Shown here: positions 764 to 28,696 of the stretch, one piece after another | Layout: each line of letters begins with the position of its first letter | Position numbering within the stretch: position 1 is the stretch's first letter | DNA from: Cellvibrionales bacterium | GTDB taxonomy: Bacteria > Pseudomonadota > Gammaproteobacteria > Pseudomonadales > JAHEIH01 | DNA: 41,649 nucleotides | Direction of reading: 5' to 3' | Assembly (NCBI GenBank): GCA_024639455.1 | Contig: JAHEIH010000012.1 | Coordinates: forward strand, 12,194 to 53,842 | The notes under the pieces: model-generated | The model's database searches: none | The model's input: only the letters and a program-made list of their open reading frames with translations | What the model was told of the DNA's origin: nothing | Position numbers and translations under genes: made by a program

Positions 764-1537
764 CTAATGCCCCGGCAACATGTATATCGCGATATCGACC
801 GCGATCAACAAAATAATAATCCATTCCAAAAACGCACTGTGCTTGTGTCGCTGCTCTTCCGCCAACATCCCTAGCATTTCATGGATGGTGGCCAGCTTGG
901 TATTTAAAATAGATAATCGAGCATTGATGTCTAGATACTTGCTCAATACGTTATAAAGGCCTTCTAATTCGGGGTATGACCAGAAAAACTCAGGCGTATC
1001 TAAGAGAGTAAATTGCCATGTGATATCGGTACTGGTATCGAAAAGGACGCCGCGCAACTTTGATAATTCTCGTCGACTCAAGGGCACTTTACCGGTACGA
1101 GCCAATTCTTTCGAGACATACATATTGGATTGAATCACATCGCGAGCGACCCCTTCAAAAAACTCCAGCTTGGTCTCTTGTGCAAAGGCGTGGCTGAGTG
1201 CGAGCCGAGTTAATGGATCGTCATTTGGCAAACTCAGCACATCATCTCGTACCTGAAAACTACCTTCATCGCTGAAGTGGTACTGGTACTTTTCAACGAC
1301 CACATCTACAGGATCTATCACGATGTCTTCAATGGCTTCTAACAAAGACTTCCGTTGGTCGTATCCAACACCCCATGTTACCAACACACCATAATCGAAG
1401 ACCCAGGCTTCACCTTGGGTAAAGCTGATCAGATAGGCATCGCGATAACGCACAGCAGACTGTTGCTCAATCAATACCGTATCAACACGCTCGCTATTAA
1501 GGCCACGACCTAACAAACTAATTTGAATTTCTTTCAC
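764..1537 (-). CDS. RMND1/DUF155 family membrane-anchored protein
   Basis: A 257-residue protein of the RMD1/RMND1/Sif2 (DUF155) family, which in eukaryotes includes mitochondrial proteins needed for translation; the bacterial role is not settled. Visible family traits are an N-terminal beta-rich half with GEAWVFDYGVLVTWGV, a central helical part with a TKLEFFEGVARDVIQSN segment, the LSRRELSKLRGVLFD stretch, a helical SKYLDINARLSILNTKL coil, and a single C-terminal membrane span (about residues 237-254). This matches the usual tail-anchored layout. The start is GTG at 1535-1537, with AAGGA upstream inside the preceding gene; the TGA of the GNAT-peptidase gene overlaps it as GTGA. Translational coupling with that gene is therefore likely. 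Confidence 0.85.
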   Translation of the reverse strand: MKEIQISLLGRGLNSERVDTVLIEQQSAVRYRDAYLISFTQGEAWVFDYGVLVTWGVGYDQRKSLLEAIEDIVIDPVDVVVEKYQYHFSDEGSFQVRDDVLSLPNDDPLTRLALSHAFAQETKLEFFEGVARDVIQSNMYVSKELARTGKVPLSRRELSKLRGVLFDTSTDITWQFTLLDTPEFFWSYPELEGLYNVLSKYLDINARLSILNTKLATIHEMLGMLAEEQRHKHSAFLEWIIILLIAVDIAIYMLPGH

Positions 1538-2646
1538 GCTCTTTTCCTTACTGCTACTGCAGTGCGCAGTCGAATGGCTCCAAAACTCACCATTTTGTCA
1601 AAATCTTCTCGCGCGATAGGCACATGCTGAGCATCGATGGCCAATTGATCCTCATCGAGGTCGGGGTCATGCAGATAAAAACAATGCTGGTCGGCGCCCG
1701 ATACAGCCACCCAATGAGGCGCCTTGCGGCCATCCAGTCGATACGTACTAATTAGAACAATCAGGGCAAACCCATTCTTAAGGCACTCGTCAATGTCCTG
1801 CACCGTGATAGCGTATTTGTGGATCTGCAGGCATTTCTTAACCGCTTCCGCCATGAATCCATCGTGCACAAGAGTCATCAACCGCTTTTTCGATTCGCTA
1901 CGCACACCGTCAACAAACAGGGCTGAATCGCTACTAATCCAAACCTCTGCAGCGAAACCACGCTTTTCGGCGGCCAAGGCCAAGCCTACAGGGTGCGTAC
2001 CACCCAGCCCTGTGGTCATGTATATAGTGGTCGCCTCGCGCCATATTGCCAGCTCATGGGCGGCGTCCATAATGACCTGATCGTCCTGATTGACCATCGC
2101 CATCAACAACGCCGCCGGGCCACAGGTAAATTCAGTGGTCTGTTGATACCAAGGCATCTGTGGGCGACTTTCATTGGCCAACGGTTTGACGATACGCTTC
2201 TGCATACGCAGCGCATCGCTGTGATCTTCGTAGTAATCCAAGTACTCGCCAAACACGCGGTAACCAAGTTTCTCGTATAACGCAATCGCAACATGGTTGG
2301 TTTTTGCCACCTCAAGGCGCATGTATAACCTGCCCTGAGCTACCGCGCGAGATTCAGCCTCAAGCAATAACGCCTTGCCAAGCCCTGTGCCGCGGGTGGA
2401 TTGATCCACGGCGATCGAATAAAGGCGGGCCAAACGCGTGCCGCGGTGACACCATATCAAGGCATAAGCGACGATCTTATCGGTACTATTACGTGCCACG
2501 ATAAGCAAACCTGTCGTGGCGGTAATCCAATGTTTGAAGCGACGACGGCTTAGTCGGTCATGGCTAAAGCAGGTTTTTTCAAGCTGCCACAGGGCATCGA
2601 CATCCGCCGGTTCGGCAAGACGAAAACGATAGGGAGACGCGTTCAA
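1534..2646 (-). CDS. GNAT acetyltransferase fused to C39-like cysteine peptidase
   Basis: A 370-residue two-domain protein. Residues 1-150 are a RimI-like GNAT N-acetyltransferase: the acetyl-CoA loop R85-G-T-G-L-G90 is present and is followed by the NHVAIALYEKLGY helix typical of the fold. Residues 165-360 are a C39-like papain-fold domain (Peptidase_C39-like, formerly DUF3335) with Cys175 in the TEFTCGPAAL motif, His311 in APHWVAV and Asp327 in LHDPD as a plausible catalytic triad. The fusion is known in marine gammaproteobacteria; its substrate is unknown, and my recollection is that it often sits near RimK-type ligases, none of which is seen here. The start is TTG at 2644-2646 without a good ribosome site; no in-frame ATG fits the domain boundary. 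Its stop overlaps the RMND1-like start. Confidence 0.85.
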   Translation of the reverse strand: MNASPYRFRLAEPADVDALWQLEKTCFSHDRLSRRRFKHWITATTGLLIVARNSTDKIVAYALIWCHRGTRLARLYSIAVDQSTRGTGLGKALLLEAESRAVAQGRLYMRLEVAKTNHVAIALYEKLGYRVFGEYLDYYEDHSDALRMQKRIVKPLANESRPQMPWYQQTTEFTCGPAALLMAMVNQDDQVIMDAAHELAIWREATTIYMTTGLGGTHPVGLALAAEKRGFAAEVWISSDSALFVDGVRSESKKRLMTLVHDGFMAEAVKKCLQIHKYAITVQDIDECLKNGFALIVLISTYRLDGRKAPHWVAVSGADQHCFYLHDPDLDEDQLAIDAQHVPIAREDFDKMVSFGAIRLRTAVAVRKRA

Positions 2647-2816: not shown

Positions 2817-3815
2817 TTAGGCCGGTTTCTGAAGCACGAGGCTTTGCAACGCCGCCTTGCTTAAGCGCGGGCCGTATTTGCCTACTACTTGCGCTGCACA
2901 GCGGTTGCCAAACGAGGCGGCCGCTTGTTTGTCGCCACTGGTGACCAATACAGACATAAAGGCGCCGGCAAACATATCGCCCGCGCCATTGGTATCGACG
3001 GCATCGGCGGGGAATCCCGCCACGTGCTCCACGCTATGCATATCACCCACTAAGGCACCATTGGCACCATCGGTAATCGCAAACGCGCTGCAGTGGTGCA
3101 GCAACGTATCGCCAGCCGCCTCGAGTGACTCGCACTGAGTAAAGGCCTTGGCTTCGTCGGCGTTGCAGAATATGAGATCGACACCAGCGCCAATCACTTG
3201 ACGGATGGCGGTTTCGAACACAGCTACGACGAAGGGGTCAGACAAACTTAATGCCACTTTTACGCCGTTGTCGCGGGCAAATTTCAACACGTCCAACACC
3301 ATATCGGTGCGTGGTTGGTCAGTTAACAAATAGCCTTCTAAGTAGAGCCAATGAGACGCAGCCAGCGCGTCAAAATCGACCTCGGCGAGCGAGTGGTTCA
3401 CACTGGCGCCCAAAAATGTATTCATCGTGCGATCGGCGTCAGGCGTCACCATCACCAGGCACTTACCGGTGATATCACCACTGGCACGAACATCGTGAAA
3501 GCGAATACCGGCGTCTTTTAGATCAGCGGCGAACAACGCGCCGTCGTCGTCGTCAGCAACGCGGCCACTAAAGGCCACACTAGCGCCGAACTCGGCGGCC
3601 GCCACAGCACTGTTACAGGCCGAACCGCCGCAGGCGCGGTCGATGTGCGAATGGTGTTTGATCAACGCACTCACCAATTCGTCTTGGCGTTGTTCGTCAA
3701 CCAGGGTCATTACCCCCTTGTCGATGCCATTAGCGGCGAGAAATTCTGGGGTCACACGGATCTCGGTGTCGACCAGGGCGGAGCCAATGGCGTAAATGTC
3801 GATAGTTTTGGTCAT
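2817..3815 (-). CDS. Adenosine kinase, PfkB/ribokinase family
   Basis: A 332-residue PfkB-family sugar/nucleoside kinase that most resembles bacterial adenosine kinases (adenosine + ATP to AMP + ADP, purine salvage). The N-terminal substrate-binding glycine motif GGSACNSA (residues 63-70) and the C-terminal anion-hole motif NGAGD with catalytic Asp280 are both present. The MTKTIDIYAIGSALVDTE start is typical. ATG at 3813-3815 is preceded by AAGGAG at good spacing. A TAGAAT -10-like hexamer lies at 3837-3842 on the minus strand. The gene is divergent from rfaH and followed by a probable terminator. PfkB substrate choice cannot be proven from motifs, so ribokinase-like activity on another nucleoside or sugar remains possible. 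Confidence 0.85.
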   Translation of the reverse strand: MTKTIDIYAIGSALVDTEIRVTPEFLAANGIDKGVMTLVDEQRQDELVSALIKHHSHIDRACGGSACNSAVAAAEFGASVAFSGRVADDDDGALFAADLKDAGIRFHDVRASGDITGKCLVMVTPDADRTMNTFLGASVNHSLAEVDFDALAASHWLYLEGYLLTDQPRTDMVLDVLKFARDNGVKVALSLSDPFVVAVFETAIRQVIGAGVDLIFCNADEAKAFTQCESLEAAGDTLLHHCSAFAITDGANGALVGDMHSVEHVAGFPADAVDTNGAGDMFAGAFMSVLVTSGDKQAAASFGNRCAAQVVGKYGPRLSKAALQSLVLQKPA

Positions 3816-3916: not shown

Positions 3917-4420
3917 ATGTCCGACAATGCGCAATGGTTCCTGTTGCAAACAAAAGCCCGCGACGAACTGCGCGCGCTTGAGAATTTGCACAATCAAGGG
4001 ATCCACACCTACTGTCCGATGATCGAGGTCAGCAAAATTGTGCGCGGCAAACGCCAGCAACTTACCGAGGTGCTGTTTCCAGGCTACATCTTCGTTAAAC
4101 TTGATGAACAATCCCCTAGATTTACTAGCATTCGCTCCACCCGCGGCGTGGCAAAATTTGTGAGTTTTGGCAGCACCCCCAGCGTGGTTCCCAATGAACT
4201 GATCGCTTTGATCCAACAACAGTGCGATGCCGATGATACCGAGATCGTTAATAACGCACCGCAGCGTGGTGACATGGTGGAAATAACCGAGGGCGCCTTT
4301 AACGGGCTGCAGGCGGTATTTAGCCAACCCGACGGCGCGAAGCGCGCCATCGTGCTGGTTACGGTGATGAGTCAGCAAGTTCCGGTGAGCATCAGCAACC
4401 GAGACATAACCAAACGCTAA
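3917..4420 (+). CDS. rfaH: Transcription antiterminator RfaH
   Basis: A 167-residue NusG paralogue. RfaH binds RNA polymerase at ops sites and suppresses pausing and Rho termination in long operons for LPS core, capsule and exopolysaccharide, then recruits ribosomes. Features seen: W8-F-L-L-Q-T-K, ENLHNQGIHTYCPMIEV, the basic RGKRQ stretch and LFPGYIFVKL of the NGN domain, followed by a short KOW-like C-terminal domain (RGDMVEITEGAFNGLQAVF). The single YCP and LFPGY motifs favour RfaH over NusG, as does the lack of neighbouring secE/rplK. ATG is preceded by AGGGAG. It converges with a hexose-phosphate mutase gene that could feed the polysaccharides RfaH controls. I found no convincing ops element in the window. 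Confidence 0.92.
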   Translation: MSDNAQWFLLQTKARDELRALENLHNQGIHTYCPMIEVSKIVRGKRQQLTEVLFPGYIFVKLDEQSPRFTSIRSTRGVAKFVSFGSTPSVVPNELIALIQQQCDADDTEIVNNAPQRGDMVEITEGAFNGLQAVFSQPDGAKRAIVLVTVMSQQVPVSISNRDITKR

Positions 4421-9006: not shown

Positions 9007-10797
9007 ATGGATGATTCTTACACGATGCCTGACAACCAATTTCGCCCTCGCTCAATCCCCCTCTTCGTTCTGCTGGCAATAGGCTTTTGGCCGGTATCGC
9101 TGTGCTTTGCTGAACTTAACGTCTCGGGTATCGACAGCGATTTGGCGGCGGCGGTGGTTGAGCAATCACCGCTGAATGGAGCGGCCTGCGACGCGCCCAA
9201 TTGGTGGGTGGAAAAACAATTGGATAAAACCCAAGTAATTGCTGGGCAGCTCTTGGAAACGCAGGGGTTTTATCAATCGTCGTTTGAGCATCAGCAAAGC
9301 ACTGAGAAGGATTGCTGGCAGGCGCAACTGAAGATTATACCCGGCACGCAAGCGATCTATCGTTCGGTTCTGCTCGACGGTATCGACACCCTGCAGTTTA
9401 ATAGCGATCAGCTGGCCACCTTTGTTCCTCAAACGGGGTCGGGCTTTACCCACGCCAGCTATGAAGACATCAAGTCTAATGTCATCAGCCAAGCCCACGC
9501 TATGGGATACTTGGATGCCCATTGGCAAACCAACAAGGTCACGGTGCAGATCCCACGCGAGGACGCTGAAACCTCGGTCAGCGAGCAAACTACTGCCGAC
9601 GTAGCGTTGCTACTTTCCCCTGGGCCGCGCTATCGCTTTGGGAGTCTTGAACACCACATTGACAACATCGACCCAGACTTTCTAGCGAAGTTTTACGATA
9701 TGCGCCCGGGCGATCCCTTTACCCGCCAGGCATTAGACGAGGCCTATCAAAACTTGATGTCGACAGGCTATCTCGGTGCATTGGCTATTACCCCCCAGTA
9801 CGATCAGGCCAGCGAACACGTCGTGCCAGTGTTAGTAGAAGGCGCTCCGGCTCGCAAACGAACCTATGAAATTGGCGCCGGTTACGCCACCGATAGCGGC
9901 CCTCGCACCCGTGGCGAAGTTCGCTGGCGACGCATCAATGATCGCGGCGACCGCGCCCGTCTGACTGCCATGCTGGCTAATAAAGAAAGCGTACTCAGCG
10001 GCGAATACCGTCGCGCCGATGAAGATGACCCCCGCAATCGCTGGCTAAGTCTGGGGGCCAGTTATGAGTTCGATGAGCCTGATACCTACAAGCGTGAGAA
10101 GACCGCGATTACCGCGACACAAAGCCTGCGCCGTGAAGATAAATGGCTGCGTACCCATGTGGTGCAATATTCTTCGGAGGTGTGGCGCATCGCCGACACC
10201 GACGGCGACACCCAGTTGCTGAGTATTGGCCAAGGCTGGCAGCGCAGCCTGGGCGAAGGGCGCGGACGCCTTGCCAGTGGTCGCTCGTTGAATTTAATTT
10301 GGCGCGCGGCCGCCAAAGCCGCGGGATCCGACATCGATGTGCTACAGATGCAGGCCGCCTATAAAACCATTTATACCCTATCGCCCAAATGGCGTTTGCT
10401 AGGCCGAGTCCACATGGGCATCAACGTGGTAGATGATCTCGATTTACTCCCTCCAGATCTGCGTTTTTTTGCTGGCGGCGATAACAGCGTGCGCGGTTAC
10501 GACTTAGACACCTTAGGAGACATTCGCGTTGTCAACGGCGAATCCGTCGTTATTGGCGGCAAGCGCATCATCGATGGCTCTATCGAGCTAGACCGCGCCA
10601 TCCGTAAAGATTGGTCAGCGGCGCTATTTGTCGACGCCGGCAGCGCGTTCAATAACGCCCCGGACTTGGCAATAGGCGCCGGAGTGGGTGCGCGCTGGTA
10701 TTCACCGCTCGGGCCAATCCGCATCGATATTGCCCATGGTTTTGATGGGCTGAACCCTGGCTGGCGTTTACACATTAGCTTTGGAGCAGAGCTATGA
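9007..10797 (+). CDS. tamA: Autotransporter assembly factor TamA (BamA/Omp85 family)
   Basis: A 596-residue outer-membrane protein. After a signal peptide (hydrophobic IPLFVLLAIGFWPV, cut near CFA-EL), three POTRA repeats run to about residue 270, followed by a 16-strand Omp85 barrel. Barrel traits include GAGYATDSGPRTRGEVRW, the FAGGDNSVRGYDLDTLG motif containing the conserved RGY of lid loop 6, and a C-terminal strand ending WRLHISFGAEL. With TamB it inserts autotransporters and other outer-membrane proteins. ATG 9007 is used; ATG 9025 (MPDNQF) is an alternative and neither has a good ribosome site. A TAGAAT hexamer at 8992-8997 would start transcripts almost at the first ATG. The stop overlaps tamB by four bases. 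Confidence 0.93.
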   Translation: MDDSYTMPDNQFRPRSIPLFVLLAIGFWPVSLCFAELNVSGIDSDLAAAVVEQSPLNGAACDAPNWWVEKQLDKTQVIAGQLLETQGFYQSSFEHQQSTEKDCWQAQLKIIPGTQAIYRSVLLDGIDTLQFNSDQLATFVPQTGSGFTHASYEDIKSNVISQAHAMGYLDAHWQTNKVTVQIPREDAETSVSEQTTADVALLLSPGPRYRFGSLEHHIDNIDPDFLAKFYDMRPGDPFTRQALDEAYQNLMSTGYLGALAITPQYDQASEHVVPVLVEGAPARKRTYEIGAGYATDSGPRTRGEVRWRRINDRGDRARLTAMLANKESVLSGEYRRADEDDPRNRWLSLGASYEFDEPDTYKREKTAITATQSLRREDKWLRTHVVQYSSEVWRIADTDGDTQLLSIGQGWQRSLGEGRGRLASGRSLNLIWRAAAKAAGSDIDVLQMQAAYKTIYTLSPKWRLLGRVHMGINVVDDLDLLPPDLRFFAGGDNSVRGYDLDTLGDIRVVNGESVVIGGKRIIDGSIELDRAIRKDWSAALFVDAGSAFNNAPDLAIGAGVGARWYSPLGPIRIDIAHGFDGLNPGWRLHISFGAEL

Positions 10798-13700
10798 TCG
10801 CCCCTACAAAACGCCGGTTGCGCTGGCGCCGCTGGATCGCCGCCACTTTGATTGCACTTGGCAGCGTCCTGATGAGCCTGTATATGGTGCTTGCCACCAA
10901 CGACGGTTCGCGCTGGCTGATTCAAAAAGTCGGCACGTCGGTACCCTATAGCACGACCGATATTAGCGGCAACGTGATCAGTGGACTTAACATTGGTCAC
11001 TTGAGCATGGCGCTTCCCAGTGCAGCCATAAGCGTCAAAAACGCCAGCATTAATCTCGATCTTTGGCCATTGCTGTTCGCCCAAGAATTGCGCATTGCCT
11101 CATTGAGTATCGAGTCGCTGACAGTAGCCACGCGCCCCGCCGAGCAGGCCAATAGCGATACCTCGCTACCTTTATTACCCGCACTACCGGTACGCGCCGT
11201 GCTAAACAAGCTATCGCTAGACACTATCGTCATTGATGACGCTGTGCCCATGGGTCTAGCTATGGATAGCCTTAGCTTGATCGATCAACGCCTCAAATGG
11301 CAACGCTTAACCTTTACCCGTGCCGATCTAACGCTGCAAAGCTCTGGGGAATGGCTGGCCAACGCCCTCACCCAACAACTCAAAACCAAGACGCGCTGGT
11401 CGATGGGTTCTATGGGGGGTGAATTAGTCGGTGAAGGGCCACTTAAGGCCTGGAAACTCAACCACAGCTTCAGCGCCGGTGAAGCGCTGGGAAGCGGCAA
11501 GGTGTTTAGTGATGGCAGCCTGAAAGTGCTCGCCGTCGACGATGTCAACGTCATTCTAAACAACCAAATCAGCGGCATCCAAGGCCCTGGCTGGTCTATT
11601 GGTAGCGAGCAACTCACTGTGAATACTGATTTGACGACATTCACCGTGAGTGGCAACATCGTTTTAAATAGCGAACACGCCGGCGATGTAAACGGGAACA
11701 TCCAAGCTAGCGGCACCCTTGCCAAAGGCGCGACCATCACCCTGGACGTTGCGGCTCTTAGCGGCAAAGCACAACTCAACAGCCAAGTCGACTGGCAACC
11801 CACCGTAAATATCATTGGCGAGATCCAAGGCCGCGGCCTTCGACTAGACCAACTGGCGGCATGGCCCTTAAATAGTCAGGCCATGACCGCCTTAAACATT
11901 CGTTTTGCTGCGCAGCAGAATGGCGAAGTGATCCATTGGCAGGTCCCAAAAGCCGCCCTTGACGGTGTGCTGGGTGATGCTCCACTCACCGTTGAAGCCC
12001 GAGCGAAAGGTACGCCGGACAATTTTCACCTTGAACACCTTTTCCTGAGGCACCTCGGAAATTGGTTAGAGGGTCGCGGCGATCTTATTGTCCAACAAGC
12101 CGCCATGCAATTTACCGCCAACTTCGACGACATTAGCCCCTACCGTGCGGGGCTTCAAGGTGATGCGGTGGTGAACGGCAAGGTTCAAACCGCGCTCGAT
12201 AATTGGCAGCACGGCAGCCAGATCGCCATTGAACTCAACAGTCGACAACTGCAAGCCGGCGATACTCACCTGGGTGGCTTGTCTTTACAGCTCAACAACA
12301 GTGGCCAGCAGTTGAATGGTCAATTAAGCGCAGCTTTCATCCACAGCGGTGATATCGCGTTGGAGGATTTTAAACATAGTTTAGAGGGTGATATCGGTCA
12401 CGATAGTGTCAGTGTCGCCGGCACTGGCGGCGGGCAACTGATTATCGGCGGGCAGCGTTTCCCTCTGCCCTCCCCCACCAGCCAATGGCGCTGGTATCGC
12501 CAGGGTGAATCTCTGCTAGATATCAACCTGCAAGCCAGCGATGACCGCTTTAGCTTGCTCGCTAATGCCAATATTGACCGACAACAACAATTGCTAGCTA
12601 ATGCTGAGCTGGCCGTTACTTCCCTGCAATGGCTGAGCGATTTCAACCCGCGATTGGAAACCCTCGATGGCAGCGCTCAGCTTCACGCCGAGATAAACGG
12701 CTCGCTTGTCTCAACGGACGAACTAAACATCACCAGTCAGTTTAGCGTCGATGCCCCGGCCATCTCATTGATCGATCCCGCCATACGACTTAACAGCAAC
12801 CGTATCGAAGGGGCATTGTTGCGCGATGGTCGCTTTACTTTTAGCGGTCACGCACAACAGGGTGAAAAACCCATCGCTCTGATGGGTAGCGGCCAGTTGC
12901 TAGGCGACAACTCACCGACGTTGCAGGTTTCGCTCAACGCCGAGGGCCTGCGCGCCACCACCCCCAAAGTAGAAATCGCCGTTTCACCCAACCTCAACCT
13001 TGCCATTGATCCGAGCTTGGTGAAGGTGCGTGGCAGCATTGCGGTCCCCCTAGCTGATATCGAAGTTAGCCAATTGCCCAACCCCAGCTTCACCCGCTCT
13101 GATGACGTGTTCGTGGTAGGTCGTAAAGCACCAGAAACAAGAACCAGCATGCAACAAGATATCGACGTCACGCTGCGACTCGACGATAAAGTGGTGATAA
13201 AGGCGGCGGGGCTGGCAACTAAATTGCGCGGCGAATTACGCTACAGTTCAGTCACTGGGCGCCCAGCGCAACTGCAAGGCAAATTGGACTTAGTCGATGG
13301 CAGCCTGAGTTCGCAGAACGGCGATCTATCGATCAAACGCGGCAGCCTGATTTTCAGCGGCAGCACTGATAACCCTGGAGTTGATATTATCGCCGTGCGC
13401 AAGATCGATTCACCCGCCATCGAGGTTGGCCTGCACATTACCGGCACGGTGAAAGACCTGCGCACGGCTATTATTTCGATTCCAGCCATCGATCAAACCA
13501 AGGCGTTATCTTACTTGGTGTTCGGGCGCGACATTAGCCAAGACGATGGCGACAGTGGCAACAGCAACGCACAACTAATGAGCGCCGCTATTAGCCTGGG
13601 GATTGGCCAGTCCAGCAGTTTGATGCAAAACCTCAAGCGCAGTACGGGATTGGACGAATTGGCCGCCGTCGCTAACGACAGCGGCTCGGCCTCATTGATT

Positions 13701-13865
13701 GCAGGCAAACAAATTAACAGCCGACTCTACGCCCGCTATCGCTACGACATGGCCGAGGCATTGGGAGTATTGTTGCTGCGCTACCGTCTAAGCCAGCGCT
13801 GGACGTTGGAAGCCGAAAGCGGCGCCGATAACTCTATCGATGCGCTATATCGACTGGGCGACTAG
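10794..13865 (+). CDS. tamB: Translocation and assembly module protein TamB
   Basis: A 1023-residue AsmA-like/TamB protein, shorter than the ~1250-residue E. coli protein. It has an N-terminal signal anchor (about residues 14-35, WIAATLIALGSVLMSLYMVL), a very long repetitive beta-rich body that in the family forms a hydrophobic groove bridging the periplasm, and the conserved C-terminal TamB domain (DUF490) with KLRGELRY, QGKLDLVDG, SIKRGSLIFSG, KALSYLVFGRD and a final RYRYDM..ALGVLLLRYRLSQRW barrel-like part. It works with TamA in outer-membrane protein insertion, and relatives are implicated in phospholipid transport. ATG overlaps the tamA stop (ATGA), indicating coupled translation. Confidence 0.92.
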   Translation: MIAPTKRRLRWRRWIAATLIALGSVLMSLYMVLATNDGSRWLIQKVGTSVPYSTTDISGNVISGLNIGHLSMALPSAAISVKNASINLDLWPLLFAQELRIASLSIESLTVATRPAEQANSDTSLPLLPALPVRAVLNKLSLDTIVIDDAVPMGLAMDSLSLIDQRLKWQRLTFTRADLTLQSSGEWLANALTQQLKTKTRWSMGSMGGELVGEGPLKAWKLNHSFSAGEALGSGKVFSDGSLKVLAVDDVNVILNNQISGIQGPGWSIGSEQLTVNTDLTTFTVSGNIVLNSEHAGDVNGNIQASGTLAKGATITLDVAALSGKAQLNSQVDWQPTVNIIGEIQGRGLRLDQLAAWPLNSQAMTALNIRFAAQQNGEVIHWQVPKAALDGVLGDAPLTVEARAKGTPDNFHLEHLFLRHLGNWLEGRGDLIVQQAAMQFTANFDDISPYRAGLQGDAVVNGKVQTALDNWQHGSQIAIELNSRQLQAGDTHLGGLSLQLNNSGQQLNGQLSAAFIHSGDIALEDFKHSLEGDIGHDSVSVAGTGGGQLIIGGQRFPLPSPTSQWRWYRQGESLLDINLQASDDRFSLLANANIDRQQQLLANAELAVTSLQWLSDFNPRLETLDGSAQLHAEINGSLVSTDELNITSQFSVDAPAISLIDPAIRLNSNRIEGALLRDGRFTFSGHAQQGEKPIALMGSGQLLGDNSPTLQVSLNAEGLRATTPKVEIAVSPNLNLAIDPSLVKVRGSIAVPLADIEVSQLPNPSFTRSDDVFVVGRKAPETRTSMQQDIDVTLRLDDKVVIKAAGLATKLRGELRYSSVTGRPAQLQGKLDLVDGSLSSQNGDLSIKRGSLIFSGSTDNPGVDIIAVRKIDSPAIEVGLHITGTVKDLRTAIISIPAIDQTKALSYLVFGRDISQDDGDSGNSNAQLMSAAISLGIGQSSSLMQNLKRSTGLDELAAVANDSGSASLIAGKQINSRLYARYRYDMAEALGVLLLRYRLSQRWTLEAESGADNSIDALYRLGD

Positions 13866-22445: not shown

Positions 22446-22717
22446 TACATCACCATGGTCACAACACCTGAGTTTTTCAGGTCGCTGTGCAATGCCTCAA
22501 GTTGCGGCTGGCCAGTAGCAATAATCGTCACCGTCATCGATACGAAGGTTCCCTTGCTGCTATCTTTCATCACCACACTGGTACGATCGTAATCGGGTGA
22601 ATGCTCCTCAACGATCTCTAATACCGTGCCCTTAAAGTGGTCACAGCTACGGCCTAAAATTTTGATCGGGTAGTCACAGGGGAACTCGATCTTTGGATCT
22701 TGAACGTCTTCGCTCAT
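22445..22717 (-). CDS. YbeD/DUF493 family protein
   Basis: A 90-residue protein of the YbeD (DUF493) family, with an ACT-like ferredoxin fold that has been suggested to be regulatory. The [12 protein letters not shown] start and the [25 protein letters not shown] end are characteristic. Almost always found between a D-Ala-D-Ala carboxypeptidase gene and lipB, as here. It overlaps both neighbours by one base (TAATG at the start, TAGTG at the end). Molecular function unknown. Confidence 0.93.
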
Positions 22718-23904
22718 TAAATCGCACCAAATAATTGCATAAAGAACAGTTTGATGGCGTCTATCAGGCGGCCAAAGAAGCCAGCTTCTGCAACACTTTC
22801 CAACGCTACCACTGGCAGCGTCACGATGTTGTCATCGCCCAAGTTCACCACCAACTCACCTAGCGTTTGGCCTTCAGCCACGGCACCTTTAATCACTTTA
22901 TCGATGGTCATGTTGGCCTGTAGGTCGCCACGCGAACCGCGCGGAATGGTCACAAACACATCTTCGGCAATACCCAAACGCACACTGTTGCGCTCGGAAC
23001 CCCATAGGCGCGCCTCGGTCAACTGCTCACCGGCCTTATACAATTGGGGCGTTTCGTAAAAACGGAAGCCGTAGTTCAACAATTTGCTTGACTCCACTTG
23101 GCGGGAACGGGTGCTTTCGGTACCCATCACCACAGAAATCAAACGCATGCCGTTCTTCTCCGCCGATGTCACCAGGCAGTAACCTGCCTCTGAGGTGTGA
23201 CCAGTTTTCAGGCCATCGACGCCAAGCTGACCACCCAGCAAGCTATTGCGGTTGGGGGTACGAATACCGTTGTAGGTATAGCTCCGTTCGCTGTAGAGCT
23301 TATAGTCTTCGGGAAAATCATTGATGATGTGCTTGGCCAGAATCGACAAGTCGCGCGCGGTGGTTAGGTGGCCATCGGCGGGAAGACCGTGCGAATTGAC
23401 GAAATAGGTATTGCTCATGCCCATCACTTGGGCGTGCTGATTCATCACATCCGCAAACGCTGCTTCGCTACCGGCCAGGTGCTCAGCTACCGCCACAGTG
23501 GCATCGTTGCCAGAGCTGATAATGACACCGCGGTGAAGATCCTCTACCGCGACTTCAGTGCCGACTTCGATCCACATCAGCGATGACCCCTTAAACACAG
23601 GGTTTTGTGCCCAGGCATTCTTACTGATTTTGACCATGTCCGTGGGTTTGACGTTACCGCGAGCGATCTCGTACGACATGATGTAGCTGGTCATCATTTT
23701 GGTGAGGCTGGCTGGCGGCAACCGCTGGTCAGCATTGTTCTCCGCAAGAATTTTGCCGCTTTTAGCGTCGAGCAGCAGGTGAGCTGTCGCAGCCACCTCC
23801 GGTGGAGCGGGGATCAATTGGGGCGCGGATTGCGCCGCCGCAGATAAACTCAACACGCCCGACAACAGCGCGCTCGCAACGACCGACAGGTAACGAATAG
23901 ACAT
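22717..23904 (-). CDS. dacA: D-alanyl-D-alanine carboxypeptidase (PBP5/6 type)
   Basis: A 395-residue periplasmic enzyme trimming the terminal D-Ala of peptidoglycan pentapeptides. It has a signal peptide ending near SAAAQS-A, the active-site S66-L-T-K69, the S131-G-N motif and the K233-T-G box, then the family's C-terminal beta domain and an amphipathic membrane-binding helix at the end (FFGRLIDAIKLFFMQLFGAI). That helix and its place in the rodA-rlpA-lipB cluster support a PBP5/6 (DacA/DacC) role. dacC would be an equally fair symbol. Confidence 0.95.
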   Translation of the reverse strand: MSIRYLSVVASALLSGVLSLSAAAQSAPQLIPAPPEVAATAHLLLDAKSGKILAENNADQRLPPASLTKMMTSYIMSYEIARGNVKPTDMVKISKNAWAQNPVFKGSSLMWIEVGTEVAVEDLHRGVIISSGNDATVAVAEHLAGSEAAFADVMNQHAQVMGMSNTYFVNSHGLPADGHLTTARDLSILAKHIINDFPEDYKLYSERSYTYNGIRTPNRNSLLGGQLGVDGLKTGHTSEAGYCLVTSAEKNGMRLISVVMGTESTRSRQVESSKLLNYGFRFYETPQLYKAGEQLTEARLWGSERNSVRLGIAEDVFVTIPRGSRGDLQANMTIDKVIKGAVAEGQTLGELVVNLGDDNIVTLPVVALESVAEAGFFGRLIDAIKLFFMQLFGAI

Positions 23905-23966
23905 AGTACAGACAACCCTCCTTTTGGTGGCCGCAGTGTACCAAAATCTCAGGCGCTAAGCGACGC

Positions 23967-24713
23967 CTAGCGGGGGCGAATCAAGACGGGACGGGAAAAG
24001 CCCGCGTCAACCAACTGCTGAATAAGCGCATCGGCGGCGGCAAAGGTAGTCAATGGCCCCAAACGGGCACGGAACACCCCATTTTCCGCTTCGATCACCG
24101 ACGCCACCTGAACAATGGCGGCCACCTGGGTTAGCAGCGCCTCAGCGCGATGGCGTTCGCTAAAGGCACCCAGTTGTAAGAAATAACCTCCCGCTTTGGG
24201 CAACTCAAGTAAATTATTGGGATCGAGTACTTCAATCCGAACCCGCGCTGTACCCTTATCCATGTATCCCAATTTGGTCGCCGCGGCAAACGACAAGTCG
24301 ATCAAACGGTCGTCGTGGAAGGGGCCGCGATCGTTGATGCGCACTACCGCCGTACGGCCATTTTCTAGATTGGTTACTCTGGCGTAACAGGGAATAGGTA
24401 GGGTTTTGTGCGCCGCGCTCATGGCGTACATATCAAAAATTTCGCCATTAGACGTGCGCCGGCCATGAAACTTTGTGCCGTACCAAGAGGCGATGCCCTC
24501 CTCCACATAACCGATGGGTGTCGGTAACAGGTGATAGGTTTTGCCAAGCACGTCATAGGGCGAGCGATTCCCTGCACGCCCAATCACCTCAAAACGCGGC
24601 ACGGCGTCGGGAATGGTCTCAGGATCGAGGCGTATACTTGGAGCACTATCACGATGCTCGACAGCACTACAGCCCGCCAAGGTCAGAAACAAAACAGCGA
24701 GTAACAGCCTCAC
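23967..24713 (-). CDS. rlpA: RlpA septal ring lytic transglycosylase, lipoprotein
   Basis: A 248-residue outer-membrane lipoprotein. Lipobox L-A-G-C15 follows a short signal peptide. The double-psi beta-barrel domain has GIASWYGTKFHGRRTSNGE, AHKTLPIPCYARVTN and VRINDRGPFHDDRLIDLS with the catalytic Asp, and a C-terminal SPOR domain (about residues 175-248, YFLQLGAFSERHRAEALL) binds denuded septal glycan. It cuts glycan strands lacking stem peptides. GTG at 24711-24713 is the start, directly after the mltB stop, which points to coupled translation. A small AGGCG/CGCCT hairpin follows before dacA but has only a weak T stretch. Confidence 0.95.
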   Translation of the reverse strand: MRLLLAVLFLTLAGCSAVEHRDSAPSIRLDPETIPDAVPRFEVIGRAGNRSPYDVLGKTYHLLPTPIGYVEEGIASWYGTKFHGRRTSNGEIFDMYAMSAAHKTLPIPCYARVTNLENGRTAVVRINDRGPFHDDRLIDLSFAAATKLGYMDKGTARVRIEVLDPNNLLELPKAGGYFLQLGAFSERHRAEALLTQVAAIVQVASVIEAENGVFRARLGPLTTFAAADALIQQLVDAGFSRPVLIRPR

Positions 24714-25688
24714 TTATTGGTCACCCAACTCGCGGCTCAATTGGTAAACTGCCATGGCATAGAGGCGACTGCGGTTGTAGCGGGTGATGGCATAAAAGTT
24801 CTTTAAACCAAGCCAATACTCTTCGCCGTGTTTAACGCGCAAGCGCACCGCGGTGGCTTGCATGTCATCGTTCACGCCCTTGGCTTCATGTCCAAAACCC
24901 AATTCTGCCAATTCGGCAACAGTGCGTTTTGGAGTCAAGGAATCATTCAATATAGACTCATCCAAGTCAGCACTCACTACGGCAGGAACAACGATAGGCG
25001 CTCCACGTTGCCAACCATGCTCAGCTAAATAATTGGCAACCGAACCGATCGCATCGACCGGATTATTTAGAATATCGACAATGTGGTCGCCATCAAAATC
25101 AATGGCATAGTGTCGGTAGCTGCTGGGGATGAATTGGCCATACCCCATCGCACCGGCATAAGACCCCAGTAGCTCTGTGATGTCAAAATTTTGTTCTTTA
25201 GTGAGCAGAAATAGCTCTTCTAATTGGCCGCGGAAAAACTTGGCTCGCGGCTCGTAGTCAAAGCCCAAGGTAGCCAAAGCATCCAACACACGGTACTTAC
25301 CGGTATAGGTACCGTAACGTGTTTCCACACCAATAATGGCGGCTACAACATAGCGTGAAACGCCGAACGCTTTTTCAGCACGATCAAAGGTAGCGGCATG
25401 TTTCTGCAAGAAGGCTTTACCGTTGTTGATACGCTTACTATCCATGAAAATACGGCGGTACTCATACCATGCTAGGCGTTTTTCAGCCGGACGCGAAATC
25501 GCATCGATGATAGATTGCTGGTATGTCGCCTCACCCATGGTCGCGCTAACGTAATCGCGATCCAAGCTGTGCTTGCTCACCATCTCATCGATGAAGGCTT
25601 GCACCTCGGTTTGTTCACGATAGTCCTTAGCAGCCACACTGCTTGCCAATCCTAATGCCGCCAGTGCGACAAGGCCCTTCTTCCACAT
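24714..25688 (-). CDS. mltB: Lytic murein transglycosylase B
   Basis: A 324-residue periplasmic enzyme that cleaves the MurNAc-GlcNAc bond with formation of 1,6-anhydroMurNAc. It has a signal peptide (LVALAALGLASSVAA, then K-D) with no lipobox Cys, so it is soluble or peripherally bound, unlike the E. coli lipoprotein. Catalytic Glu122 sits in IIGVETRYGTYTGKYRVLDAL, and the family's SYAGAMGYGQFIPSSYRHYAIDFDGD segment is present. It lies nine bases after rodA within the elongation cluster. Confidence 0.94.
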   Translation of the reverse strand: MWKKGLVALAALGLASSVAAKDYREQTEVQAFIDEMVSKHSLDRDYVSATMGEATYQQSIIDAISRPAEKRLAWYEYRRIFMDSKRINNGKAFLQKHAATFDRAEKAFGVSRYVVAAIIGVETRYGTYTGKYRVLDALATLGFDYEPRAKFFRGQLEELFLLTKEQNFDITELLGSYAGAMGYGQFIPSSYRHYAIDFDGDHIVDILNNPVDAIGSVANYLAEHGWQRGAPIVVPAVVSADLDESILNDSLTPKRTVAELAELGFGHEAKGVNDDMQATAVRLRVKHGEEYWLGLKNFYAITRYNRSRLYAMAVYQLSRELGDQ

Positions 25689-25697
25689 GATATTTCC

Positions 25698-26843
25698 CTA
25701 GTGCGCCAAGCGGCGCTGCTCTGTACTGATGGCCATCAAAATACCAAAACCCATCATCAAGGTCACCAACGAAGTTCCACCTTGACTCACTAATGGCAGC
25801 GGAACACCCACTACCGGTAAAATTCCAGACACCATGCCCATGTTGACCACCACATAAACAAAAAATGTCATGCTCACTGCGCCGGCTACCAAACGGGCAA
25901 ACGTCGATTGCGCAGACATGCCAATGACAAGACCGCGCACCAAAATTAACAGGTACAAAAGCAGCAAGCTAACCACACCGATCAGGCCAAACTCTTCGGC
26001 AAGTACCGCGATAATAAAGTCGGTATGACTTTCAGGCAGGAAGTTCAGCGCAGACTGCGAGCCCTGCAAGTACCCCTTACCCTCAACACCACCTGAGCCG
26101 ATGGCGGTCATCGATTGAATAATGTTCCAGCCGGCGCCCAAGCGATCGCTCTCAGGATCAAACAAGGTAAGCACGCGTCGCTTTTGGTACTCGTGCATCA
26201 CAAAGAACCACATGATCGGCGTCGCCACTACCACCAAACCGCCTACAGCCGCAATGTAGCGCCCACTTAAGCCCGCAAAAAACAAGCAGAATAATCCCGC
26301 CGAAGCCACCAAAATCGCGGTACCTAAATCGGGCTGCCTAAAGATCAACACCGCCGGTATCATAGCGATCGCTAATGCCGTGGTTACATCTTTAAGACGC
26401 GGCGGCAACACCCGCTGCGCTAAGAACCACGCCGTAGCCAACGGCATAATCAGCTTCATAATTTCAGACGGCTGGAACCGAAAACCGCCAATATCTAACC
26501 AGCGTTGCGCACCCTTGCCGACCGTCCCTGCAAAAAGTACCGTCACCAATAACACCAAGCCCAGCACATAGACAAAGGGTGACCAGCGCCGCATCACATC
26601 GACACTGATTTGGGCAACAAAAAACATCGCACTATAGGCGATAAAGAAAAATGTCGCTTGTCGCTTGACGGTAGCCAGCGACTGTCCACTGGCGCTGTAA
26701 AGCACCACCAATCCAACACCGGTGAGAATCATCAACAGCAACAACAGGTAGGGGTCGATATGCAGCCGCTGCCACATGGTAGCTCGAAGACTCGAAGCAC
26801 TGCCGCCGAGAGACATCTGCCTGACAAATTCACCGCTACTCAC
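25698..26843 (-). CDS. rodA: Rod-shape SEDS peptidoglycan glycosyltransferase RodA
   Basis: A 381-residue SEDS protein with about ten membrane spans that polymerises glycan strands in the elongasome together with PBP2. Characteristic segments are GKGAQRWLDIGGFRFQPSE, FRQPDLGTAILV with the catalytic Asp, QSMTAIGSGGVEGKGYLQGSQ, LPESHTDFIIAVLAEEFG and the C-terminal VSQGGTSLVTLMMGFGILM. The start is GTG, overlapping the mrdA stop by four bases (GTGA), which ties its synthesis to PBP2. Confidence 0.97.
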   Translation of the reverse strand: MSSGEFVRQMSLGGSASSLRATMWQRLHIDPYLLLLLMILTGVGLVVLYSASGQSLATVKRQATFFFIAYSAMFFVAQISVDVMRRWSPFVYVLGLVLLVTVLFAGTVGKGAQRWLDIGGFRFQPSEIMKLIMPLATAWFLAQRVLPPRLKDVTTALAIAMIPAVLIFRQPDLGTAILVASAGLFCLFFAGLSGRYIAAVGGLVVVATPIMWFFVMHEYQKRRVLTLFDPESDRLGAGWNIIQSMTAIGSGGVEGKGYLQGSQSALNFLPESHTDFIIAVLAEEFGLIGVVSLLLLYLLILVRGLVIGMSAQSTFARLVAGAVSMTFFVYVVVNMGMVSGILPVVGVPLPLVSQGGTSLVTLMMGFGILMAISTEQRRLAH

Positions 26844-28696
26844 TTCCCGAGACCTCCTAAATCGCCCTGCTCGTCCAGCAGATAAGCATCCATCACTGCG
26901 CGCGCCACTTTCACCGCCTCAGAACTCTTTTCGCCATTTTCGATAACCACAGCTACAGCGATTTGTGGGTCATCCGCCGGCGCATAGCCGATATAGAGCG
27001 CATGGTCGCGCTTGCGCTTTGCTAAAGCTTCTGAATCGTACTCTTCGCCCTGCGCGATACCCACTACTTGAGCAGTACCCGTTTTACCGGCCATCGCATA
27101 GGGCATACCTCGCGACGCCGCGCGTGCCGTGCCACGTTCGCCGTGCACCACGTCAAACATGGCTTTTTCGATGACCGCCCAGTGTGCAGGGTCAACATCC
27201 AAGGTGTTGCGCCTTACCGGCATGGGTTCTAGTTCGCCCATTTTTTTGAGCACTCGGGGCTGAATCCACTGACCTCTATTGGCGAGCACCACTGTCGACG
27301 CCGCCAACTGCATGGGTGTGGCTAGCATGTAGCCTTGGCCAATACCGATATTGAGTGTTTCGCCGGGGAACCACGGTAAATTATGCGCCCGTTTCTTCCA
27401 GGCCTTGGAAGGCATTAGGCCGCTCCGCTCGCTGGTCAAGTCCACACCCGTTGGGACCCCGTAACCAAAGCTAGCCATGAACTCGTGGATTTTATCGATA
27501 CCGAGCTTGTACGCCAGGTCATAGAAGTAAACATCGCAAGATTCGATGATGGCGTCCGTTACATTGATGCGAGCGGCATGACCTTCGCGCTTCCAATCGC
27601 GATAAAAACGGGTATCTTTGGGCAACTGATACCAACCAGGATCGCGCACGGTGGTATTAGGGGTCACCGTCCCATAATAGAGCCCCGCCATGCCGATCAA
27701 TGGCTTCACTGTCGAGGCTGGGGGATATTGTCCCTGCAGACTGCGGTTGAAAAGCGGCAAATCGGGCGAGTCGCGCAGCGCCGCATAATCCTTGCTACTA
27801 ATACCGTTAACAAACAAATTTCCGTCGTAGCTCGGCGAGCTAACCACCGCCAGCAATCCGCCATTCTTGACGTTCATCGCCACGACCGAACCGCGGCGAC
27901 CAGCCAGAGTTTCATAACCGGCGCGCTGCAAATCTGCATCGAAATGAAGGTGTAAATCACTCCCGGGGACAGGGTCAATTTGATCGAGCACCCGTAGAAT
28001 CCTTCCGCGGACGTCGGTCTCCACGTTTTGGTAACCCACCTGGCCGTGCAACTGCGATTCGTAGTAGCGCTCTACCCCCAGCTTACCCATGCTGTAGGTC
28101 GCCGAGTAATTTTCAGGGTCGAGCGTCTTCTGTTCGCGCTCATTAATACGGCCGACATAACCTATAACGTGGCCAAATAACTCACCGTAGGGATAGTGCC
28201 GCACCAACTGGGCCTGAATTTCCACCCCCGGCAAGGTGTGGATATTCACCGCTAACTTAGCAATCTGCTGTTCATCCAAGCTGAATATTAGCGGCACTTC
28301 CTCGAAGGGACGTTGTCGCTTCAGTCGTCGCCGAAAACTCTCAATATCTTCATCGTCGATCGAAAGCAATTGTTGTAATCGCGCCAGCGTATCCTCCAGA
28401 TCGGGTACACGCTCACGCACCAAAACTAACGACTGACTAGAGATATTTTCTGCCAACAAGCGGCCTTTGCGGTCGTAGATCAGGCCGCGTTTGGGGGCCA
28501 GCGACTGCACGTGGACTCGGTTGTTATCCGATTCGGTTTTAAAACGCTGGTACTGAAATATCTGCAGGTAGATGTAGCGTGATAGCACCACGGCGAAAAC
28601 CAGTGCAATCACGACAATGGCAAACACAGCGCGTCCCTGATATAGCTCGGCTTCAGCGCTGGGATCTTTGATGTAGCGACGATCTTGTTGCCACAC
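26840..28696 (-). CDS. mrdA: Penicillin-binding protein 2 (transpeptidase)
   Basis: A 618-residue class B PBP, RodA's partner, forming peptide cross-links in lateral wall growth. It has a single N-terminal membrane anchor (about residues 23-45), the pedestal domain with RGLIYDRKGRLLAENI, and the transpeptidase motifs S328-T-V-K331, S386-C-D and K538-T-G-T-A-Q. The length is usual for PBP2. The start is GTG at 28694-28696 (MWQQDRRYIK) with only a weak ribosome site. It follows rlmH after 24 bases. Confidence 0.96.
   Translation of the reverse strand: MWQQDRRYIKDPSAEAELYQGRAVFAIVVIALVFAVVLSRYIYLQIFQYQRFKTESDNNRVHVQSLAPKRGLIYDRKGRLLAENISSQSLVLVRERVPDLEDTLARLQQLLSIDDEDIESFRRRLKRQRPFEEVPLIFSLDEQQIAKLAVNIHTLPGVEIQAQLVRHYPYGELFGHVIGYVGRINEREQKTLDPENYSATYSMGKLGVERYYESQLHGQVGYQNVETDVRGRILRVLDQIDPVPGSDLHLHFDADLQRAGYETLAGRRGSVVAMNVKNGGLLAVVSSPSYDGNLFVNGISSKDYAALRDSPDLPLFNRSLQGQYPPASTVKPLIGMAGLYYGTVTPNTTVRDPGWYQLPKDTRFYRDWKREGHAARINVTDAIIESCDVYFYDLAYKLGIDKIHEFMASFGYGVPTGVDLTSERSGLMPSKAWKKRAHNLPWFPGETLNIGIGQGYMLATPMQLAASTVVLANRGQWIQPRVLKKMGELEPMPVRRNTLDVDPAHWAVIEKAMFDVVHGERGTARAASRGMPYAMAGKTGTAQVVGIAQGEEYDSEALAKRKRDHALYIGYAPADDPQIAVAVVIENGEKSSEAVKVARAVMDAYLLDEQGDLGGLGK

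Follow-up and report, generated by a model that had tools for sequence, protein, structure and literature searches.

An RMND1-family gene overlapping a GNAT-papain fusion gene in a Cellvibrionales bacterium: probable part of a recurring module with an RLAN-RimK-type ligase

Introduction

Two overlapping genes raise the question whether their products act together and, when one encodes a GNAT-papain fusion protein and the other a protein of the RMND1 (DUF155) family, whether the second takes the place of the RimK-type ligase usually expected beside the first. Such a pair lies in a stretch of 41,649 nt, here called the window, of a Cellvibrionales bacterium (GCA_024639455.1, contig JAHEIH010000012.1, positions 12,194-53,842 of the forward strand). 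An RLAN-RimK ligase with a GNAT-DUF3335 fusion was reportedly described as a gene-neighbourhood system in a 2009 amidoligase survey by Iyer and co-workers. A search of the open-licence literature found neither a report which connects DUF155/RMND1 with DUF3335 or with a RimK-type ligase nor experimental work on this widespread ligase/acetyltransferase/peptidase system.

Variants of human RMND1 lead to mitochondrial disease, and the protein is proposed to tether mitochondrial ribosomes and to take part in translation at the inner membrane, with data on its exact role still limited (PMC7564844). The gene context of the bacterial relatives is a clue to their function.

Results

The two genes are encoded on the minus strand, with the following features in window coordinates.

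764..1537, minus strand: DUF155/RMND1-family protein, 257 aa, GTG start (open reading frame and Pfam)
776..832, minus strand: C-terminal hydrophobic segment of the DUF155 protein, residues 236-254 (Kyte-Doolittle)
902..1405, minus strand: DUF155 domain, residues 45-212 (PF02582)
1534..1537, minus strand: GTGA overlap of the fusion stop TGA and the DUF155 start GTG (sequence)
1534..2646, minus strand: GNAT-DUF3335 fusion (papain-like, 'C39-like'), 370 aa, TTG start (open reading frame and Pfam)
1549..2157, minus strand: DUF3335 papain-like domain, residues 164-366 (PF11814)
1666..1668, minus strand: Asp327 codon (82 Asp and 7 Glu among 89 sequences)
1714..1716, minus strand: His311 codon (89/89 sequences)
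2122..2124, minus strand: Cys175 codon, catalytic-type (89/89 sequences)
2173..2634, minus strand: GNAT domain, N-alpha-acetyltransferase type, residues about 5-158 (structural matches Ard1 and RimI)

The four bases 1534-1537 are common to both open reading frames, as the original prediction had it; the TTG start of the fusion is the first ATG, GTG or TTG after the upstream stop. Both domains of the fusion exceed their Pfam cut-offs by far, Acetyltransf_1 (PF00583, residues 18-129) with 59.9 versus 20.7 bits and DUF3335 (PF11814) with 281.2 versus 25 bits, and the RxxGxG loop predicted to be intact reads R85-G-T-G88-L-G90. The anticipated Cys175/His311/Asp327 triad is likewise complete, and its feared loss in homologues did not materialize. 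In a set of 89 distinct sequences, which contains the window protein, the cysteine and the histidine as well as Gln169 are invariant and position 327 is acidic throughout (39 Asp and 2 Glu in a smaller set of 41). The acetyltransferase loop is looser than the triad, with R85 kept in 60, G88 in 78 and G90 as Gly in 53 and Ala in 35 of the 89. A classical C39 leader peptidase as the identity of the second domain is not supported, as Peptidase_C39_2 (PF13529) scores 23.0 bits against a cut-off of 24, gave nothing when this genome was searched at E 0.001, and a transporter domain is absent from the fusion. DUF3335 itself is described, in a survey of papain-like proteinases, as often fused to GNAT and closely related to Guanylate_cyc_2 (PMC10318531).

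The AlphaFold2 model of the fusion (from 32 sequences; mean pLDDT 92.8, pTM 0.88) places the GNAT domain next to Ard1 (4pv6; Z 22.6, 147 aligned residues, 1.4 Å) and RimI (2cnm; Z 22.4, 148 aligned residues, 2.2 Å), and 20 of the first 22 structure matches listed bear a name of the Ard1, RimI, Nat or Naa type. Glu103 and Tyr115 of RimI have catalytic roles; Glu112 and Tyr124 of the fusion align with these residues in 2cnm and are retained as Glu in 89/89 and as 78 Tyr and 11 Phe, respectively. N-terminal acetylation would thus fit the modelled fold, and by sequence the domain is classed as RimI-like and not filed as RimI, with 70.9 bits for the RimI equivalog TIGR01575 below its cut-off of 86.4.

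The second protein carries DUF155 with 144.7 bits (cut-off 27). Its hydropathy peaks at residues 236-254 with a 19-residue Kyte-Doolittle mean of 2.39, compared to 1.08 for the best stretch starting before residue 200, and E238 and W239 in this segment are nearly invariant in 22 homologues. The designation as a tail-anchored RMND1-like protein is thereby supported, with the C-terminal anchor predicted from hydropathy. The AlphaFold2 model, built on 22 sequences, is confident (mean pLDDT 91.0, pTM 0.82) and superposes on CorA, CmaX and ZntB with Z 8.5-9.0 and rmsd 4.1-5.0 Å over 156-181 residues, a level which long helices can reach by chance. The best Foldseek E value is 3.6e-3, not a strong match, and sequence comparison with solved structures gave none below E 0.098; a CorA-like arrangement of the predicted fold should be taken as a lead only. 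The annotation 'RMD1 family protein' is carried by two distant relatives that are encoded on plasmids.

These features bear on an alternative which we regard as possible although we would not expect it, namely that the product of ligase and fusion is a small metabolite, an N-acetylated peptide similar to an osmolyte or a cofactor, and that DUF155 serves in the membrane or in transport and not as a tether for protein modification. Sets of ATP-grasp, GNAT and peptidase proteins do occur in metabolite pathways; the GNAT domain weakly matches N-acetylglutaminylglutamine synthetase (TIGR03103, 34.6 bits versus a cut-off of 569), and a CorA likeness would suit transport. On the other hand, the GNAT fold is nearer to the protein N-alpha-acetyltransferases, and the likeness to CorA stays under the level trustworthy for long helices.

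Whether the pairing extends beyond this strain was assessed with a DUF155 subfamily alignment, which retrieved 316 relatives, the best 80 of which were kept as named loci together with flanks of up to 10 kb; contig ends shorten some loci, so that the counts are lower bounds. A fusion gene lies within 10 kb of DUF155 at 17/80 loci, and at the same 17 an RLAN/RimK-type ligase is found within this distance, the ligase-profile match at locus L143 being left out as a canonical RimK. A fusion gene directly upstream of DUF155 and in the same orientation is present at 14/80 loci, 13 of which show the order ligase, fusion, DUF155 on one strand. The linked loci include Cellvibrionaceae bacterium 1162T.S.0a.05, Marinagarivorans, Aestuariibacter, Paraglaciecola, Glaciecola and Aliiglaciecola. 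The adjacency is thus not confined to one strain, and a ligase accompanies the pair elsewhere, ahead of the fusion in 13 cases.

Genomes sampled evenly from the class (185) and the phylum (398) give the same picture; in the class sample, weak partial PF11814 matches over the cut-off (G016, G116) and a DUF155 match below it (G052) were excluded, and some organisms appear to be shared with the named loci (for example L103/G202, L125/G206 and L114/G544). Where DUF155 occurs with fusion or ligase, the genes are at most 10 kb apart in 6/16 (class) and 15/22 (phylum) genomes, the latter representing fewer independent cases as one family (f217) supplies 11 of the 15. At a generous chance of linkage of 2% per genome, the binomial tails amount to 4e-7 (class) and 5e-21 (phylum), ignoring kinship. 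Co-occurrence with DUF155, equally calculated with kinship ignored, is significant for the ligase (Fisher p 6e-5 in the class, 1e-8 in the phylum) and for the fusion (0.005 and 7e-11). Chance adjacency is unlikely because the pairing recurs, and a joint function of fusion and DUF155, suggested by the original prediction from the coupling of the two genes, gains support from the repeated neighbourhood and from the enrichment of fusion and ligase in DUF155 genomes.

A gene can also land near a module without sharing its function. Such hitch-hiking of DUF155 would suit the linkage at only 17/80 of its loci, its accessory distribution (see below) and the mixed state of the closest relatives of the window protein, which falls into a supported (starred) set of ten in the DUF155 tree with four members linked to the module and six not. 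We nevertheless consider it very unlikely, as the linkage recurs in seven sampled families other than that of the window genome, spans two DUF155 subfamilies and several gene orders, and as DUF155 co-occurs with fusion and ligase even in unlinked genomes.

The tendency of the fusion to sit near RimK-type ligases, which the original prediction mentioned, proved pronounced, with a ligase within 10 kb in 26/29 fusion-bearing genomes of the class sample; the three exceptions are G154, in which no ligase was found, G060 with a ligase on another contig and the genome under study. Among order-level relatives with the fusion, 9/10 have the ligase nearby, the exception again being this genome. The original prediction that no RimK-type ligase is visible here applies to the window and not to the genome. 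On another contig, C13, a profile search located the RLAN domain of such a ligase at C13:209401-209835 (E 2.6e-34); the protein combines RLAN (116 bits) with RimK (36 bits) and other ATP-grasp matches and is surrounded by genes for a LysR regulator and for PhoU-like and Pit-type phosphate proteins. The pair is situated at 13.0-14.8 kb of the 53.8-kb contig C23 and the ligase at 209 kb of the 244-kb C13, both inside their contigs, which makes a contig-end artefact unlikely as the cause of the split.

In a tree of 60 ligases the separated ligase belongs to a set of five (support 98) together with three ligases from intact ligase-fusion-DUF155 operons and that of genome G191, while the window fusion and members of intact operons form an unstarred set of six with support 94, nested inside a starred set of 23; the trees are quick ones calculated without bootstrap. 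Identity to the intact operon of strain 1162T is 56% for the fusion, 55% for DUF155 and 60% for the ligase. That DUF155 might have replaced the ligase as a different partner of the fusion, as put forward originally, is not supported in view of the ligase elsewhere in the genome and of relatives which carry all three genes in one operon. The simplest reading would be an ancestral operon split by the moving of one part, in one direction or the other. G215, from another family, is a second split case, in which fusion, DUF2817 and DUF155 genes follow one another while the ligase is encoded at a distance of 2.1 Mb. No member of the three families turned up in a genome of the same genus as the window's (G185, 75% complete).

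The three components do not have equal standing. DUF155 is present in 10/29 and absent from 19/29 of the fusion-bearing genomes of the class sample and lies within 10 kb of the fusion in 3/29, as compared to 26/29 for the ligase; the ligase is therefore the standing partner of the fusion and DUF155 an accessory, not an obligate one. Conversely, DUF155 genomes devoid of both partners make up 13/29 in the class and 17/39 in the phylum. Among the 63 named loci with no fusion within 10 kb, 49 genomes could be searched (the remainder being 13 loci and L142), of which 37 encode a fusion elsewhere, 39 a ligase elsewhere and 10 neither. DUF155 of Paraglaciecola marina (L131) has LysR and small-protein neighbours in common with that of P. 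arctica (L130), while ligase and fusion are absent from the whole P. marina genome; L126 equally retains DUF155 with both partners missing genome-wide, and at L168 both are located elsewhere. In a distant DUF155 subfamily (19 tree rows), families f226 and f216 include genomes without ligase and fusion, and members of the same subfamily stand beside the module in G101 and, by coordinates, in G297, G309 and G313. The DUF155 tree implies 15 changes of linkage, at least 9 of them forced by supported branches, an approximate count as the labels miss links beyond the 3.5-kb loci (for example L101). As DUF155 persists where ligase and fusion are missing, it may have a job of its own, either a second role or a role on the substrate side which outlives the enzymes.

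The same persistence bears on a special case of the reading favoured below, in which the substrate of the module is a protein of the ribosome or near it, and DUF155 recruits ribosomes to the membrane in the way suggested for RMND1 in mitochondria. The RimI-like GNAT domain, the relatedness of the ligase to RimK and the proposed tethering of mitochondrial ribosomes would go well with this assumption; it is distinctly unlikely in view of the many bacterial DUF155 genomes without the module, a GNAT score short of the RimI cut-off and a substrate that is putative.

A small peptide gene, suggested as a further companion and potential substrate, did not emerge. Open reading frames of at least 45 aa (in the neighbour survey) or at least 60 aa at the surveyed loci include no consistent or conserved candidate; the survey comprised 91 loci, 15 of which were chosen for DUF155 beside the module, so that its DUF155 count is no frequency. 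A protein of 73-115 aa with a signal-peptide-like start is encoded near 9/81 DUF155 loci, but it is also present at L118, L131 and L168, with neither ligase nor fusion nearby. Nor did a shared regulator appear. In this genome, as at some Alteromonadaceae loci, a LysR gene is located ahead of the ligase, but three such proteins are only 23-25% identical to that of this genome over 72-150 residues, and the genes ahead of the operons in L104 and L112 do not match it. Scans for promoters and terminators in the window stayed near the level of shuffled sequence (5 versus 3.1 and 3 versus 2.9), and no Rfam family reached threshold there.

Carboxypeptidase-type genes accompany the fusion in other genomes. 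Local profiles, built from one or few members and with some members checked against Pfam, detect DUF2817 near the fusion in 3/29 class-sample genomes and 2/10 relatives, M14 in 3/29 class-sample genomes and MATCAP in 2/10 relatives and at L242; MATCAP matches of this kind lie near the fusion in G191 and Litorivivens, and in G206 a MATCAP (PF08014) gene is 8 bp away from it. With the same profiles, no DUF2817, M14 or MATCAP gene was found beside the fusion in this genome (G000:C23:1-16000 or the window). PF08014 presumably also comprises the animal proteins TMCP1 and TMCP2. These tubulin carboxypeptidases are reported to trim tails and to remove glutamates (PMC10499314). By analogy, the position of the ligase beside carboxypeptidase-type enzymes suggests a possible cycle of addition and trimming on peptide ends.

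Also by local profiles, a variant neighbourhood in G004, G022 and G170 assembles genes for the RLAN ligase, GCS2 and FGase, and in G004 a single-domain C39-type protein is encoded ahead of the ligase. This composition speaks for the metabolite alternative.

Discussion

The reading that we favour, and which we hold to be moderately probable, is that the pair is part of a recurring RLAN-ligase/GNAT-papain/DUF155 module for the modification of peptide or protein ends, from which the ligase has split off in this genome, with DUF155 as a membrane tether. The module as such is based on co-occurrence, a shared neighbourhood, a ligase that groups with those of intact operons, the conservation of catalytic-type residues and a predicted anchor. 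Since the metabolite alternative overlaps with the module part of this explanation, the likelihoods of the two do not exclude each other and do not add up to certainty.

Judged by their families, the components could work as follows. The RLAN/RimK-type ligase would add amino acids to the end of a peptide or protein, the GNAT domain would acetylate an alpha-amine, and the papain-like domain may cleave or transfer an amide bond; carboxypeptidase-type neighbours, where other genomes have them, might trim the product or reverse its formation. A cytosolic DUF155 protein, fixed by its C-terminal anchor, would keep the enzymes, or else the substrate, at the inner membrane.

A more far-reaching reading, unlikely as we consider it to be, would make bacterial RMND1-family proteins the membrane organisers of a peptide-end modification system that is a counterpart of the tubulin cycle and that combines RimK-type ligation, RimI/Ard1-type N-acetylation and trimming of the papain-like and zinc-carboxypeptidase type. 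The mitochondrial RMND1 tether would then descend from, or share its logic with, an adaptor with which a modified protein or ribosome is brought to the inner membrane.

As the recurring operon ties bacterial RMND1 relatives to named enzyme classes, the function of DUF155 becomes testable, with binding to the RimK-type ligase or the GNAT-papain enzyme and location at the membrane as the questions to address. For the widespread ligase/acetyltransferase/peptidase system, DUF155 adds a membrane component.

Several known systems lend themselves to comparison. With the N-alpha-acetyltransferases RimI and Ard1 (Naa10), the GNAT domain shares the fold (Z about 22) and the glutamate and tyrosine aligned to RimI 103 and 115, but it is joined to a papain-like domain and scores under the RimI equivalog cut-off. 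The C39 leader peptidases of ABC exporters (PF03412) are, like the fusion, of the papain-like superfamily with a Cys/His/acid triad, a kinship indicated in the survey cited for DUF3335 (PMC10318531), whereas the fusion has no transporter domain and its domain is DUF3335. The tyrosination/glutamylation cycle of tubulin, in which TTL-type ligases oppose carboxypeptidases, resembles the module in that an ATP-grasp ligase stands beside carboxypeptidase-type genes; in contrast, the module is bacterial, involves no tubulin, its opposing action is presumed, and the locus of this genome is without such a neighbour. A further counterpart, the system of RLAN-RimK ATP-grasp ligase and GNAT-DUF3335, has the same fusion protein and the same ligase family, while here the ligase resides on another contig and a DUF155 gene overlaps the fusion. 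The RMND1/Rmd1/Sif2-Sif3/Mrx10 family (PF02582), finally, has the DUF155 domain and the predicted C-terminal membrane segment in common with the window protein, which, unlike these relatives, is bacterial and encoded in an operon with putative peptide-modifying enzymes.

Small protein near DUF155 in Alteromonadaceae

At nine loci of Alteromonadaceae genomes, the gene for the DUF155 (RMND1-family) protein lies close to one encoding a protein of 73-115 amino acids, whose copies have a signal peptide-like start and two cysteines in common, and which at eight of the nine is adjoined by, or near to, a LysR-cluster gene. Two examples, in the loci's own coordinates, are:

L168, 9372-9593, small protein (no match to Pfam)
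L130, 6031-6258, small protein

Neighbourhoods of the fusion and the ligase

In the window, the GNAT-DUF3335 fusion/DUF155 pair has as neighbours genes for RfaH and a PfkB-family kinase; two further gene groups of the window are listed with them:

2817-3815 (-), PfkB-family kinase
3917-4420 (+), RfaH (TIGR01955, 172.5 bits against a cut-off of 144.5)
9007-13865, Omp85/TamB pair
22717-28696, cluster including genes for PBP transpeptidase, FtsW/RodA and D-Ala-D-Ala carboxypeptidase

Elsewhere, a variant set at three loci (L058, L059, L060) comprises genes for the RimK-type RLAN ligase, GCS2 and FGase, with DUF155 2-6 kb away from the ligase, which at L058 is preceded by a single-domain C39-type protein. 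At L114 and L213, taken as the same organism, an extra piece of 149 residues matching the fusion profile adjoins the ligase, and DUF155 lies on the opposite strand between this piece and the full fusion.

Relatives of the fusion (~44% identity, 98% coverage) are also carried by very large replicons of Azospirillum (plasmid records H1-H7). At three further loci, a gene near the fusion encodes a bacterial protein related to MATCAP, which trims the terminal tyrosine from tubulin, matched by PF08014 or by a local profile built here from one or a few family members:

L064, 7202-8536, MATCAP relative (PF08014, 452 bits)
L061, 5749-6891, MATCAP relative (local profile)
L242, 9367-10656, MATCAP relative (local profile)
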